Shown here piece after piece: positions 29,879-34,707 of a DNA stretch of 64,000 bases (position 1 is its first letter; each line of letters begins with the position of its first letter). The translations under genes were made by a program, and so were the position numbers. Below the pieces are notes generated by a model that searched no databases, was not told where the DNA came from, and worked only from the letters and a program-made list of their open reading frames with translations. The stretch spans positions 1 through 64,000 of the forward strand of contig NZ_SKBU01000015.1 in assembly GCF_004337705.1 (NCBI RefSeq), read 5' to 3'. This DNA is from Rubrobacter taiwanensis (lineage in GTDB: Bacteria > Actinomycetota > Rubrobacteria > Rubrobacterales > Rubrobacteraceae).

Positions 29879-31927
29879 CTACCGCTCGACCTCTACGATC
29901 CTGAAGAACTCCAGGACGTCGCCTTCCTTGACGTCGTTGAAGTTCTCGATGCCGATGCCGCACTCGAACCCCTGCCGCACCGAGCGCACGTCGTCCTTGA
30001 AGCGCTTGAGCGAAGCCACCTCGCCCTCGTAGATCACCGTGCCGTCGCGCACCACGCGCACCCGGTCGTTGCGGGAGATCTCGCCCTCGGTCACGTAGCA
30101 GCCGGCTACGGTACCCACGTTCGGAACCCGGAAGGTCTGGCGCACCTCCGCAACGCCGGTCTCGCGCTCGGCGGTCTCCGGGGCCAGCATGCCCTTCATG
30201 GCGGCCTCGATCTCCTCCAGCGCCTGGTAGATCACGCCATAGGTCCGGATCTCGACGCCCTCGCGCTCGGCCACTTGCTTGGCCGTCGCCGTGGGGCGCA
30301 CGTTGAATCCGAGCACGATACCCTCGCTCGCCGCACCGAGCTTCACGTCCGCGTCGTTGATGGCGCCCACGCCGCTGCGCACGATGTTCACGCGCACCTC
30401 GTCGGTGGAGAGCCGGGTGAGGGCGTCCCGGAGTGCCTCCACGGAGCCGGCCACGTCCGCCTTGACGATGAGGTTGAGGTCCTTCACCCCGCTCTGGCCG
30501 AGCAGGTCCTCAAGAGTCCGGCGGGTGGGGCCGCCCTGAGCCAGCTCCTGCCGCCGCAACGCCGCCTCGGCCTGCTGCGCCCGGGCGCGCGCCATGCGTT
30601 CGTGCTCGACGACCTCAAAGCCGGTGCCGGCCTCGGGAACTCCCTGCAGGCCCAGGATCTCTACCGGCATACCGGGTCCGGCCTCCTCCACGCGGTGCCC
30701 CGTGTAGTCCATCATGGCGCGCACGCGGCCGTAGGAGGTGCCGGCGAGCACGATATCTCCCCGGTGCAGCGTGCCCCGCGTCAGCAGCAGGGTGGCGACC
30801 GTGCCCCGGCCGGGATCGAGCTGGCTCTCGATCACGTACCCGCTCGCGGGAGCGTTGGGGTTGGCCTTCAGCTCCTCCAGCTCGGCTACGATGAGGATGT
30901 TCTCGATCAGGTCCTCTATCCCCTCGCCCGTCTTGGCCGAGACGGGCACGGTGACCGTATCGCCGCCCCAGGCCTCGGGGGTCAGTCCCCGCTCGGCGAG
31001 CTGCCCCATCACCATGTCCGGGTTGGCATTCGGCACGTCGATCTTGTTCAGGGCCACGACGATGGGGACCCCGGCCGCCCGGGCGTGCTCGATGGCCTCC
31101 TCGGTCTGCGGCATCACACCGTCGTCGGCAGCCACCACGAGCACCACCACGTCCGTTATCTTCGCGCCGCGGGCGCGCATCTCGGTGAACGCCTCGTGCC
31201 CCGGGGTGTCTATGAAGGTGACCTTCCGGCCGCCGCTCTCCACCTGATAGGCCCCGATGTGCTGCGTTATGCCGCCGGCCTCGCGCGCGGCGACCTCGGT
31301 CTGGCGGATCTTATCCAGAAGCGAGGTCTTGCCGTGATCCACATGCCCCATCACCGTGACCACCGGGGGCTTCTCGATCAGATCCTCCGGAGCGTCCTCG
31401 ACCTCCGGCTCCGGGGCGGAGAGATCCACGGCCTCCGTGAGCTCGACCCGCACCCCCAGCTCCTCGGCGACGAGCTCGATCTCCTCCTCGGTGAGCGTCT
31501 GGTTCTGGGTCTTCATCTCCCCCAGGCTGAAGAGGATCTTCACCACCCGGGCCGGCGGAACCCCGGCCGCATCCGCCAGATCCTTAACCGTCGCGCCGGG
31601 CTCCAGTCGGATCACCCCGTCTCCCCGCTCCTTCTCGGGCTCCGGCTCGGCCTTCTTTGCGGGCGCCGGCCGGTCACCGCCGGCGGCGCGAGAAGGCTTG
31701 CTGGTCGCACTGGCGTCGATAACGACGCGCCGGCGCTTCTTGGAGCCCTTGCCTCCCCGGGGAGAGTTCTGCTTCCGCCCGTTGCCGAACACCCGCTCGT
31801 AGAGCTCGTCATCCACCGCCGCGAAGTGGTTCTTCACCTCCACCCCGGCGTCTTGCAGCCGCCGCATGACCTCTTTCGTGTCCAGCGACAGCTCCCTGGC
31901 TATCTCGTAGACTCGCCTGTTGCTCAC
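29879..31927 (-). CDS. infB: Translation initiation factor IF-2
   Basis: GTPase that brings initiator tRNA to the 30S subunit. The 682-residue protein has the short N-terminal IF2N helix region ([21 protein letters not shown]), a Lys/Glu linker, a second IF2N unit, the G domain ([21 protein letters not shown]) and the C-terminal beta-barrels. GTG 31927 follows the nusA stop by 14 bases; no ylxR or L7Ae-like gene lies between them. Confidence 0.96.
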
Positions 31928-31941
31928 GCTATCCCCCCTTC

Positions 31942-33057
31942 CTAGGAGCCGCTCTCTCTCTGGCCTTCAAACTCCTCCGCCTGGGCCTGATGCGAGGGGA
32001 TGCCGCAGAAGAGCGAGCCCGGCAGGGCCATGTTGGCGCAGCGCCGGCCGTTGGCGAGGATCGCGCGGCACCGGTGCATCGAAGACTCCTCGGGCTCCCA
32101 GTCGTCCTCCTCCTCGTACTCCACGGCCTGGCTCTCCGGCTTTATGTCTATCTTCCAGTCGGTGAGCTTCACCGCCAGGCGGGCGTTCTGCCCCTCCTTG
32201 CCGATCGCCAGGGAGAGCTGGTCGTCCGGTACGATGACCTCGGCCTGCCGCTCGTCCTCATCCAGGTACACCTCCCGCACCCGGGCCGGAGAGAGCGCCT
32301 TCGCTATGAAGCGTGCCGGATCGGGGTCCCACTGGATGATGTCTATCTTCTCGTTTCTGAGCTCCGAGACCACGGCCCGGACCCGGCTGCCCCGCGGCCC
32401 TACGCAGGCCCCCACGGGATCTATGCCGGGCTCCTCCGACCACACGGCAACCTTGGAACGCAGCCCGGCCTCCCGCGCAACGGCCTTTATCTCCACCAGC
32501 CCGTCGTAGATCTCGGGCACCTCCAGCTCGAAGAGCCCCCTCAGAAGCCCCTCGTGGCGGCGGCTCACGATCAGGCTGGGCCCGCGGCCGGACTCGCGCA
32601 CCTCGAGCAGATAGCACTTGATGCGCTGACCGTTCTCGTACCGCTCGCCCGGGACCTGCTCACTCGGCGGCAGCAGCGCCTCGACCCGGCCCAGATCTAC
32701 GAGCGTCATCCGGCGGTGGGTCTGCTGGATTATGCCGTTGACCACATCCCCGACACGCCCCCCGTACTCGGCCAGAAGCTCCTCGCTGATAACCTCGTTC
32801 AGCCGCTGGTAGAAGGTCTGGCGCATGTGGTACGCGGCCATGCGGGTGAAATCGTGGGGCGTCACGTCCTCCCCGTCCTTCATAACCCGCAGCTCACCGG
32901 TCTCCCGGTCCATCACCACCCGGGCGCCCTCTACCGCATCCTCCCGGCGCTGGTACGCCGTGAGCAGCGATTCCTCAAGAACGCTCTTCAGCTTCTCGAA
33001 CGGAATGCCCTTGTTCGTCTCTATCTCATGCAGTGCCGAAAGTAGTGCCGTATTCAT
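31942..33057 (-). CDS. nusA: Transcription factor NusA with C-terminal Cys/His knuckle
   Basis: Elongation/termination/antitermination factor. From ATG 33057 (ATGA overlap with rimP) the protein is 371 residues: N-terminal RNAP-binding domain, S1 domain, and two KH domains (DPVGACVGPRGSRVRAV; LAIGKEGQNARLAVKL). After an acidic linker the last ~45 residues add C330, C340, C351 and H356 in an arrangement like small zinc-binding CxnCxnCxnH domains; I do not know this tail from standard NusA. The ylxR gene that often follows nusA is missing. It may regulate its own operon (see the rimP leader). Confidence 0.93.
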   Translation of the reverse strand: MNTALLSALHEIETNKGIPFEKLKSVLEESLLTAYQRREDAVEGARVVMDRETGELRVMKDGEDVTPHDFTRMAAYHMRQTFYQRLNEVISEELLAEYGGRVGDVVNGIIQQTHRRMTLVDLGRVEALLPPSEQVPGERYENGQRIKCYLLEVRESGRGPSLIVSRRHEGLLRGLFELEVPEIYDGLVEIKAVAREAGLRSKVAVWSEEPGIDPVGACVGPRGSRVRAVVSELRNEKIDIIQWDPDPARFIAKALSPARVREVYLDEDERQAEVIVPDDQLSLAIGKEGQNARLAVKLTDWKIDIKPESQAVEYEEEDDWEPEESSMHRCRAILANGRRCANMALPGSLFCGIPSHQAQAEEFEGQRESGS

Positions 33058-33506
33058 GCTTCCTCTATTTCCTCCTTGAGGTGTGCCCGCGCGATGGAGC
33101 CGAACCCGATCTCCACCTCCGCTCCCCCCTCCAAGGGTCTGAGGACCACGCCGGACTCCGTCACCCGCTCGATAACCCCGGTGAAGTTCCTCCGGTCCCC
33201 GATCTTCTCCACCGTCCGCACCCGCGCCTTCCTGCCGGCGTAGCGCCGGAAATGCTCCGGCTTGGTGAGCGGACGCTCGATCCCCGGAGACGAGACCTCC
33301 AGCATCCCGCCGAAGCCCTCGCCCTCCAGCACCGGCGAGACCTCGGAGATTATGCGCGCGCAGAACTCGTGGTCGACCGGACCGTCGAACCGGTCGATCT
33401 GCAGCGTCAGCAGAGGCTCCCGCCCGCCCGAGATCCGCGCGTCCAAAAGCTCGGCCTCCGGCGGCAGAGCGCCCTCCACGATCTCCGTGATTCTCTCCAG
33501 CCGCAC
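33054..33506 (-). CDS. rimP: Ribosome maturation factor RimP
   Basis: Needed for 30S assembly. 150 residues with the RimP pattern (PLLTLQIDR, VSPVLEGEG, EVSSPGIERPL). GTG 33506 has GGAG upstream. First gene of the rimP-nusA-infB-ylxP-rbfA-nrnA-truB-ribF series; a promoter and an intrinsic terminator-like hairpin lie in its 5' leader. Confidence 0.92.
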   Translation of the reverse strand: MRLERITEIVEGALPPEAELLDARISGGREPLLTLQIDRFDGPVDHEFCARIISEVSPVLEGEGFGGMLEVSSPGIERPLTKPEHFRRYAGRKARVRTVEKIGDRRNFTGVIERVTESGVVLRPLEGGAEVEIGFGSIARAHLKEEIEEA

Positions 33507-33540
33507 CGTCTCCGATCACCTACTTCCTCGCCGAGACGTT

Positions 33541-33573
33541 AAAAAAGCAACGGGCCCGTGAGAGCCCCTTGCT
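33541..33573 (-). terminator. Intrinsic terminator in the rimP-nusA-infB leader (probable attenuator)
   Basis: On the - strand the arms GCAAGGGGC (33572..33564) and GCCCGTTGC (33555..33547) pair with one mismatch around an 8-base loop and are followed at once by six T (33546..33541). It lies downstream of the -10 box at 33591 and upstream of rimP, so it can cut transcription before the operon. A competing hairpin TTGC-GGA-GCAA (33579..33569) uses the terminator's upstream arm. Confidence 0.65.
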
Positions 33574-33590
33574 CCGCAACGCTCCCGATG

Positions 33591-33618
33591 ATTATACAGC
33601 AACGTATGAGAGTTACAA
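33591..33618 (-). promoter_or_regulatory. rimP-nusA-infB promoter (TTGTAA, 16 bp, TATAAT)
   Basis: On the - strand TTGTAA (33618..33613) and TATAAT (33596..33591) are 16 bases apart. Predicted start about 33585, giving an ~80-base leader to rimP. It lies between the ispG stop and the leader terminator. Confidence 0.65.
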
Positions 33619-33633
33619 GGCGCGCCTTGTAAG

Positions 33634-34707
33634 CTACCTGCGCCCGTCCTTCTCTATCTCCTCAAAGAGGGCGTCGAAGATCTCCTCCGCCTTCACCTTC
33701 CGCAGGGGCCTGCCCTTGGCGAAGATCACGCCGTCATCCTTGCCGCCGGCGACGCCGTAGTCTGCGTCCCGCGCCTCGCCGGGACCGTTGACGATGCAGC
33801 CCATGACCGCAACCGTGAAGTGGTCCTCGTAGTGTTTGAGCCTCTCCTCGACCCTGGCGGCCATCCCGATCACGTCGAAGCCCAAGGTACGGGCGCAACT
33901 CGGACAGGCGATAACGTTCGGCCCCCGGTGGCGCAGCTCCAGCGCACCCAGGATCTGGTAGGCGACCGGGATCTCCTCCAGCGGATCTTCGGCCAGCGAG
34001 ATGCGGATGGTGTCGCCGATGCCGTAGGGCAACAGCTGTCCGAGCGCCGCAGCGCTCTTGATCGCTCCGGGGAGCTTGGTGCCGGCCTCGGTGACCCCCA
34101 GGTGCAGCGGCGCGTCGGAGTGCTCGCGGAACTTCTTGTTGGCCTCGACCATCACGGGGACGTGGCTGGCCTTGAGCGAGACCTTGAAGTTCGTGAAGCC
34201 CATCTCCTCGGCTATCTCTACCTTGTGCAGCGCGCTGGCGACCATCGCCTCGGCCTTCGGCAGGTGCCAGAACCGCTTCTCGACCGAGCCGGAGTTCACG
34301 CCGATGCGCATGGCGATCCCCTTCTCCTGACACTTCTCGATCACGGCCCGGAAGCGGTCGTCGTTTCCGATGTTGCCGGGATTGATGCGCACGCACGCCG
34401 CTCCGGCATCCGCCGCTCCGAGCGCCATCCGGTAGTCGAAGTGTATGTCGGCGATCAGCGGCACCGGCGAGCGGGGAACGATCTCCCGGAACCCGGCCAG
34501 CGCCTTGGAACCGTTGACCGAGACGCGCACCAGATCCGCGCCCGCGCTGCTCAGGTCGTAGATCTGCTGCACGGTCGCCTCCACGTCGTAGGTCATCGTG
34601 TTGGTCATGGATTGCACGGCGATCTGCGCCCCGCCCCCGATCGGCACGTCCCCGACCATGATCCGGCGGCTGGTAACAGGTCTCTCCGGCGCTGCTGTCT
34701 CGGTCAT
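33634..34707 (-). CDS. ispG: 4-hydroxy-3-methylbut-2-en-1-yl diphosphate synthase (GcpE)
   Basis: [4Fe-4S] enzyme of the methylerythritol phosphate pathway. The 357-residue protein has the TIM-barrel N-terminus (AVQSMTNTMTYDVEAT) and the cluster cysteines in ACPSCAR and GCIVNGPGEA. ATG 34707 has GGGAG upstream. dxr is two genes upstream and uppS further up, so isoprenoid precursor and undecaprenyl synthesis are grouped. A likely own promoter is at 34744-34772. Confidence 0.95.
   Translation of the reverse strand: MTETAAPERPVTSRRIMVGDVPIGGGAQIAVQSMTNTMTYDVEATVQQIYDLSSAGADLVRVSVNGSKALAGFREIVPRSPVPLIADIHFDYRMALGAADAGAACVRINPGNIGNDDRFRAVIEKCQEKGIAMRIGVNSGSVEKRFWHLPKAEAMVASALHKVEIAEEMGFTNFKVSLKASHVPVMVEANKKFREHSDAPLHLGVTEAGTKLPGAIKSAAALGQLLPYGIGDTIRISLAEDPLEEIPVAYQILGALELRHRGPNVIACPSCARTLGFDVIGMAARVEERLKHYEDHFTVAVMGCIVNGPGEARDADYGVAGGKDDGVIFAKGRPLRKVKAEEIFDALFEEIEKDGRR

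Follow-up and report, generated by a model that had tools for sequence, protein, structure and literature searches.

A conserved promoter and terminator hairpin ahead of rimP-nusA-infB in Rubrobacteraceae, with a conserved ACG at the probable start of rimP

The rimP-nusA-infB locus and its promoter

The window, that is, the whole stretch of 64,000 nucleotides analysed here, comes from the genome of Rubrobacter taiwanensis (3.04 Mb, 57 contigs, 99.69% complete; hereafter the own genome). Its minus strand carries ispG (stop at 33634), a promoter, a hairpin, rimP, nusA and infB, in this order; the genes upstream of rimP are ones that we take to be ispG, rseP and ispC. The features used below are as follows.

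33591 to 33618, minus strand: rimP promoter, with exact letters TTGTAA (-35, 33618-33613), a 16-nt spacer and TATAAT (-10, 33596-33591)
33583, minus strand: predicted transcription start, about 8 nt past the -10, placed from sequence
33569 to 33579, minus strand: hairpin TTGC-GGA-GCAA, proposed earlier as a competitor of the terminator; present in the letters, unsupported as a functional antiterminator
33546 to 33573, minus strand: terminator hairpin AGCAA/TTGCT, G.G mismatch, GGGCTC/GGGCCC, loop TCAC (letters and folding)
33541 to 33546, minus strand: terminator T-run of six T (letters)
33514 to 33521, minus strand: Shine-Dalgarno match AGGTGATC, in register 9 nt before the ACG
33507 to 33509, minus strand: probable rimP start ACG (ACG in 35/35 family loci)
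33054 to 33509, minus strand: rimP coding sequence counted from the ACG (Pfam RimP_N and DUF150_C above cut-off)
31942 to 33057, minus strand: nusA (TIGR01953 NusA above cut-off)
29879 to 31927, minus strand: infB, encoding IF2 (TIGR00487 IF-2 above cut-off)

RimP was searched for in 60 genomes, the own genome included, and was found in 54. The subset belonging to Rubrobacteraceae (the family) comprised 36 genomes, of which 35, again including the own genome, contained RimP; the one miss, G017, is 60% complete. The rimP product of the window also matched the NCBIfam RimP models, all below the model cut-offs. The rimP stop and the nusA ATG overlap in the window (ATGA), and this 4-nt overlap occurred in 14 family loci, window included. 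The distance from the rimP stop to the nusA start was 0-4 nt in 20 family loci, no nusA start was called in L013, and AAGGAGG precedes nusA in many relatives. An open frame at 31942-33519 (525 codons) spans the whole of rimP and runs on into nusA, which is probably a result of high GC. NusA in the window ends in a Cys/His-rich C-terminal tail (HRCRAILANGRRCANMALPGSLFCGIPSHQ, 31987-32076). The tail was present in 28/35 family loci, which are those with nusA read to its end, and a related pattern was found in none of 56 loci outside the family, some of them lacking the nusA end; in Pfam, the tail gave a CCCH zinc-finger match below threshold only.

The promoter TTGTAA-16-TATAAT that the sequence-only reading had proposed before rimP is present at that site on the minus strand, and its exact form (TTGTAA-N16-TATAAT) is a single copy in the 3.04-Mb genome. 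TTGTAA, a 16-nt spacer and TANAAT were found in all 34 family loci that reached far enough upstream, and a GYTG motif starts 7-8 nt past the -10 in 26 of these 34. The spacer (33597-33612, 16 nt) is conserved across the family well beyond the hexamers, which is unusual for a promoter spacer; its first part reads roughly CCTACATACTCTG in the family, from which the window departs (CTCTCATACGTTG). With up to two mismatches, TTGTAACCTACATACTCTG had one site each in 27/36 sampled genomes, at rimP, the own genome being outside the 27, and a search of the own genome for the promoter element returned the rimP site only. Since each genome with a site had a single one, always at rimP, the idea that this element marks a regulon was rejected. 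A perfect 20-bp palindrome, TTACAAGGCGCGCCTTGTAA, at 33613-33632 overlaps the -35; its left half is, by eye, not conserved in relatives.

Terminators ahead of rimP within and outside the family

A terminator hairpin followed by six T on the minus strand had been described between the promoter and rimP, and it is there, its lower stem pairing 33573-33569 with 33550-33546 (AGCAA/TTGCT). The 45-nt leader folds with -21.2 kcal/mol (z = -2.6; equalled by 3/200 shuffles). A bare consensus scan of 3 kb returned 1 terminator-like site against a shuffle mean of 1.3, which is within chance, and the significance of the terminator therefore comes from its conservation and not from a single-sequence scan. 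In the predicted transcript, the terminator lies about 43 nt in; leader length, counted from 8 nt past the -10, was 39-45 nt in 32/34 loci and 53 nt in two. From the end of the T-run to the rimP ACG there are 31 nt in the window.

All 35 family rimP loci contained the terminator, and the pattern AGCAAGG-N(10-38)-GTTGCTTTTT occurred exactly once, at rimP, in 35/36 sampled family genomes, the sole genome without it being the one that is 60% complete. The sequence-only reading had named conservation of its hairpins in relatives as a check, and the terminator stem passed it: in the 26 of 35 leaders that were aligned, the stem of 11 pairs had standard pairs in 286/286 cells, pairing fell to 31-58% in slid-partner controls, the covariation score was above all 500 shuffles, and RNAalifold independently recovered the same stem. 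Seven of the eleven pairs never vary in these leaders and three changed on both sides, a number reached by 88/500 shuffles. The lower stem, with 5/5 pairs and the G.G mismatch, was complete in 35/35 family loci, and the first four upper pairs in 34/35, L032 keeping only 3/4. Exact GGGC..GCCC was found in the window alone; in the other loci the upper 5′ side reads GGGT (28/35), GGGC (5) or GAGC (1). The T-run consists of 6 T in 16/35 loci and 7 T in 19/35.

Two sets of other Actinomycetota were compared with the family, sharing two genomes (G040, and G042, whose locus was too short in both). By a simple terminator definition, a hairpin with a T-run lay within 200 nt of rimP in 12/14 loci of the first set (15 loci, one too short upstream), against 9/214 background windows from other parts of these loci; Rubrobacteraceae gave 33/35 by that definition, against 9/387 background windows. 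The second set, 41 loci including one too short, consisted of the 30 top-scoring loci from a Pfam search with matches in 161/198 genomes of the phylum, and eleven others. A terminator was found within 260 nt upstream of rimP in 36/40 of these loci, against 7/375 background windows, and 34 of the 36 terminators carried GGG in one arm and CCC in the other. Of the four loci lacking a terminator, one (L091) bears the label Holophaga and does not belong to the actinobacteria. In both sets the contrast is flattered by the background windows, most of which are coding sequence.

Rfam family RF01770 (rimP) has the same gene context as the leader described here. It gave no match in the own genome, so that nothing there reached its gathering score, and no match of the Rfam rimP family was obtained in the region at E up to 10; among 14 control genomes, it matched Escherichia coli only. 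The leader resembles more closely the rimP-leader of Naville and Gautheret (2010, PMC2965389), which is described there as a short GGGc..gCCC terminator, mostly with no antiterminator, for which NusA was proposed as the regulator. Shared with it are an intrinsic terminator in the 5′ UTR, just before rimP-nusA-infB, a G-rich 5′ arm, a C-rich 3′ arm and a T-run (GGGC..GCCC and 6 T in the window), and there is no larger conserved element. Unlike the rimP-leader, the Rubrobacteraceae leader has AGCAA/TTGCT as its lower stem and an invariant G.G mismatch, and the GGGT of most family loci departs from the GGGc of the published motif. Rubrobacter is unmentioned in the main text of PMC2965389. The predicted attenuator belongs to a known type, of which it is a well-conserved form particular to the family.

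Proposed attenuation of the operon and candidate regulators

An attenuator ahead of rimP-nusA-infB, as the sequence-only reading had suggested, agrees with the family-wide conservation, with the terminators in most other Actinomycetota sampled and with the published rimP-leader. What such a hairpin does at this locus could be read in several ways. In the window it lies downstream of ispG, whose stop is 127 nt upstream of GTG 33506, and it might thus be an ordinary terminator that closes the ispC-rseP-ispG genes at their 3′ end. The hairpin is, however, downstream of the rimP promoter, and in the 20/34 relatives with ispG in the fetched stretch, the ispG stop is between 179 and 2,796 nt upstream, whereas the promoter and the hairpin always accompany rimP (in the other 14/34, ispG is outside the fetched stretch, which is short in several). 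As the promoter-hairpin module tracks rimP and not ispG, we rejected this explanation, which we regard as highly improbable.

The sequence-only reading had further pointed to TTGC-GGA-GCAA, which shares an arm with the terminator, as a hairpin that would prevent termination, and its letters are indeed present at 33579-33569. A true RNA switch would require that this or a similar 5′ hairpin sequesters the 5′ terminator arm and blocks termination. Four-base pairing to GCAA with a loop of 3-9 nt was possible in 21/34 loci, against a mean of 4.0 for shuffled 5′ segments (0/500 reached it), and a 3-bp GYU/AGC pairing was possible in 92% of cells. No double change was seen in the latter, whose 3′ side is invariant. 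In the register proposed earlier, 45.5% of cells pair, with zero double changes; the loop-3 form TTG[CT]-NNN-GCAA was found in just 7/34 loci, with TTGC in the window only. A better control than the shuffle test was to compare each of the 256 possible four-base arms with the 5′ segments of the loci; 40 arms, GCAA included, scored at least as high as GCAA, so that a conserved GYTGT motif close to the predicted start of transcription can account for the enrichment. Folding energies are -16.6 to -25.7 kcal/mol for the whole leader and only -0.4 to -5.9 kcal/mol for its 5′ part; this gap of more than 10 kcal/mol also speaks against an antiterminator. The antiterminator hairpin was rejected by three tests, though the shuffle test alone favoured an RNA switch, and we consider such a switch very unlikely. 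Thus, of the two stems that the sequence-only reading expected to be conserved, the terminator stem is and the competing stem is not, and the role assigned to the latter is unsupported. Absence of a clear antiterminator is a further likeness to the rimP-leader in most species, the four-base and 3-bp pairings being the contrary hints.

The hairpin might also act as a fixed brake, or be controlled by a factor other than NusA, such as an initiation factor, RimP itself or a protein that binds DNA at the conserved promoter spacer. The conservation of the spacer well beyond the hexamers, and the sites of TTGTAACCTACATACTCTG at rimP, are in keeping with such control, and we give this reading an appreciable, though minor, chance. 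No candidate non-NusA regulator was identified, and NusA has published precedent in the rimP-leader, S. agalactiae and B. subtilis. For B. subtilis, the account in a 2025 review (PMC12288461) is that NusA is autoregulated via NusA-stimulated termination in the 5′ leader; the terminator likewise lies before the NusA gene, and the NusA dependence is reported for B. subtilis. RNA-seq of Streptococcus agalactiae is described as placing termination in the same operon 31 nt after the start. In the text of PMC8060035, as far as it was covered by a text search, there was no mention of a NusA operon leader.

We therefore favour, as the likely reading of these sequences, a leader of the rimP-leader kind, in which rimP-nusA-infB would have its own promoter and an intrinsic terminator, with NusA as the most likely regulator. 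Some polymerases would stop at the leader terminator and release a tiny leader RNA, and the remaining polymerases would read through into rimP-nusA-infB. Abundant NusA would stimulate pausing and release at the hairpin, resulting in less NusA, RimP and IF2, and no alternative RNA hairpin would be required. A sensor domain would not fit into so short a leader, which argues against an RNA switch and favours direct NusA-stimulated termination. On the read-through mRNA, rimP would be translated from a weak ACG slightly downstream of the terminator. Termination in the cell is predicted here from the conserved hairpin and T-run, and by analogy with the cases cited above, NusA autoregulation of rimP-nusA-infB is plausible; that a terminator of this strength (-21 kcal/mol, 6-7 T) allows sufficient read-through and depends on NusA is not obvious.

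The probable start codons of rimP and infC

The most surprising result is a conserved ACG at the probable start of rimP. In the window, the codon after this ACG is GTG (33506-33504), where annotation would put the start, and an in-frame TGA lies three codons upstream of the ACG. With a tolerance of three adjacent in-frame positions, ACG was found in 35/35 family loci: in 33/35 it occupies one shared position of the alignment, and in L016 and L021, which have one extra residue, it lies a codon further up. The 35 loci are related and do not count as independent observations. The in-register distance from the best Shine-Dalgarno match to the ACG was 8 nt in 19 loci, 7 in 9, 9 in 4, 5 in 2 and 6 in 1.

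Should rimP start elsewhere, the ACG would encode plain threonine, and candidates are at hand: GTG is at codon -3 in 22/35 loci and TTG at codon -2 in 3/35, and the window has GTG as codon 2. The upstream GTG or TTG codons (25/35 loci), however, lie right against the best Shine-Dalgarno match or overlap it, and 10/35 loci, window included, have no in-frame ATG, GTG or TTG within 20 codons upstream; 5/35, again including the window, have an in-frame TGA at codon -3. Threonine elsewhere in rimP is encoded by ACG in 94/202 codons, against 35/35 at the start, and only 3/142 gap-free columns of rimP are codon-invariant (the ACG column is outside these 142, as the extra residue in two loci leaves it not gap-free). 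We consider a start elsewhere improbable. The family loci therefore combine a conserved codon, Shine-Dalgarno distance and the lack of a suitable canonical alternative upstream, with the window having GTG as codon 2, and rimP in the window probably starts at ACG 33509-33507, not at GTG 33506. The conservation of the ACG is directly visible in the alignment, and its use by the ribosome is what this pattern suggests. Outside the family, a canonical in-frame rimP start was present in all second-set loci by a lenient criterion.

A dedicated ACG-reading initiator tRNA was considered and rejected, as in the own genome GGGCTCRTAACCC matched only the CAT-anticodon form. The CGT-anticodon form was found once each in 7/36 genomes, which is inconsistent, and is a candidate tRNA by pattern only. 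Among the listed titles and abstract openings of open-access papers, no ACG start of a bacterial gene was found, which is weak evidence of absence; the one listed paper that names both Rubrobacter and rimP is on waste repositories, and 'ACG' is absent from the main text of PMC5472188, PMC1805508 and PMC11497404.

A second non-canonical start seems to occur in infC, encoding IF3. The sequence GGAG-(6-11)-GTA-GC was found in 16/16 loci (L063, L064, L066, L069-L081) fetched out of 23 family genomes with an infC match. In 15/16, no ATG, GTG or TTG was in frame over the preceding 15 codons or as far as the stop, the exception being the own genome with a GTG 12 codons upstream. The family infC thus seems, from its sequence context, to start at GTA. 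By eye, several other Actinomycetota infC loci have ATA, ATC or ATT there and no canonical start nearby. Non-canonical infC starts (ATT in E. coli, ATC in Streptomyces) with feedback by IF3 are treated in PMC5472188, as is the tested precedent of Streptomyces sigR, whose GTC start is non-canonical and repressed by IF3. A more sceptical note comes from a 2007 study (PMC1805508), which remarks that the E. coli genes credited at the time with other atypical starts mostly encode defective or unknown proteins. Like the infC and sigR starts described in PMC5472188, the ACG of rimP would be a conserved start outside ATG, GTG and TTG, and in the family a Shine-Dalgarno match precedes it; unlike them, it has a middle base that does not match the initiator anticodon, and an effect of IF3 on it is hypothetical.

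Control of the operon by start-codon discrimination through IF3 is a testable hypothesis. It is possible, though we hold this only tentatively, that two feedback devices are stacked in Rubrobacteraceae, namely a NusA-responsive terminator in the leader of about 43 nt and an IF3-discriminated ACG start on rimP. IF3 would then discriminate against the rimP ACG as against the GTA of its own gene infC, and the levels of IF3 and NusA would jointly set the synthesis of RimP, NusA and, through coupling, IF2. As the rimP stop overlaps the nusA start or lies 0-4 nt from it, weak initiation at the ACG could affect nusA too, though in many relatives nusA has an AAGGAGG of its own in front.

The attenuator extends the known rimP-leader to Rubrobacteraceae, and the conservation of its promoter and stem permits direct tests. 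The ACG start, if confirmed, would be a case of ACG serving as a bacterial start codon throughout a lineage and would add a rare type to the few regulatory non-canonical starts of bacteria, such as those of infC and sigR; any annotation that admits only ATG, GTG and TTG would place the rimP start wrongly, and the fidelity of initiation would be tied to the expression of the IF2 operon.
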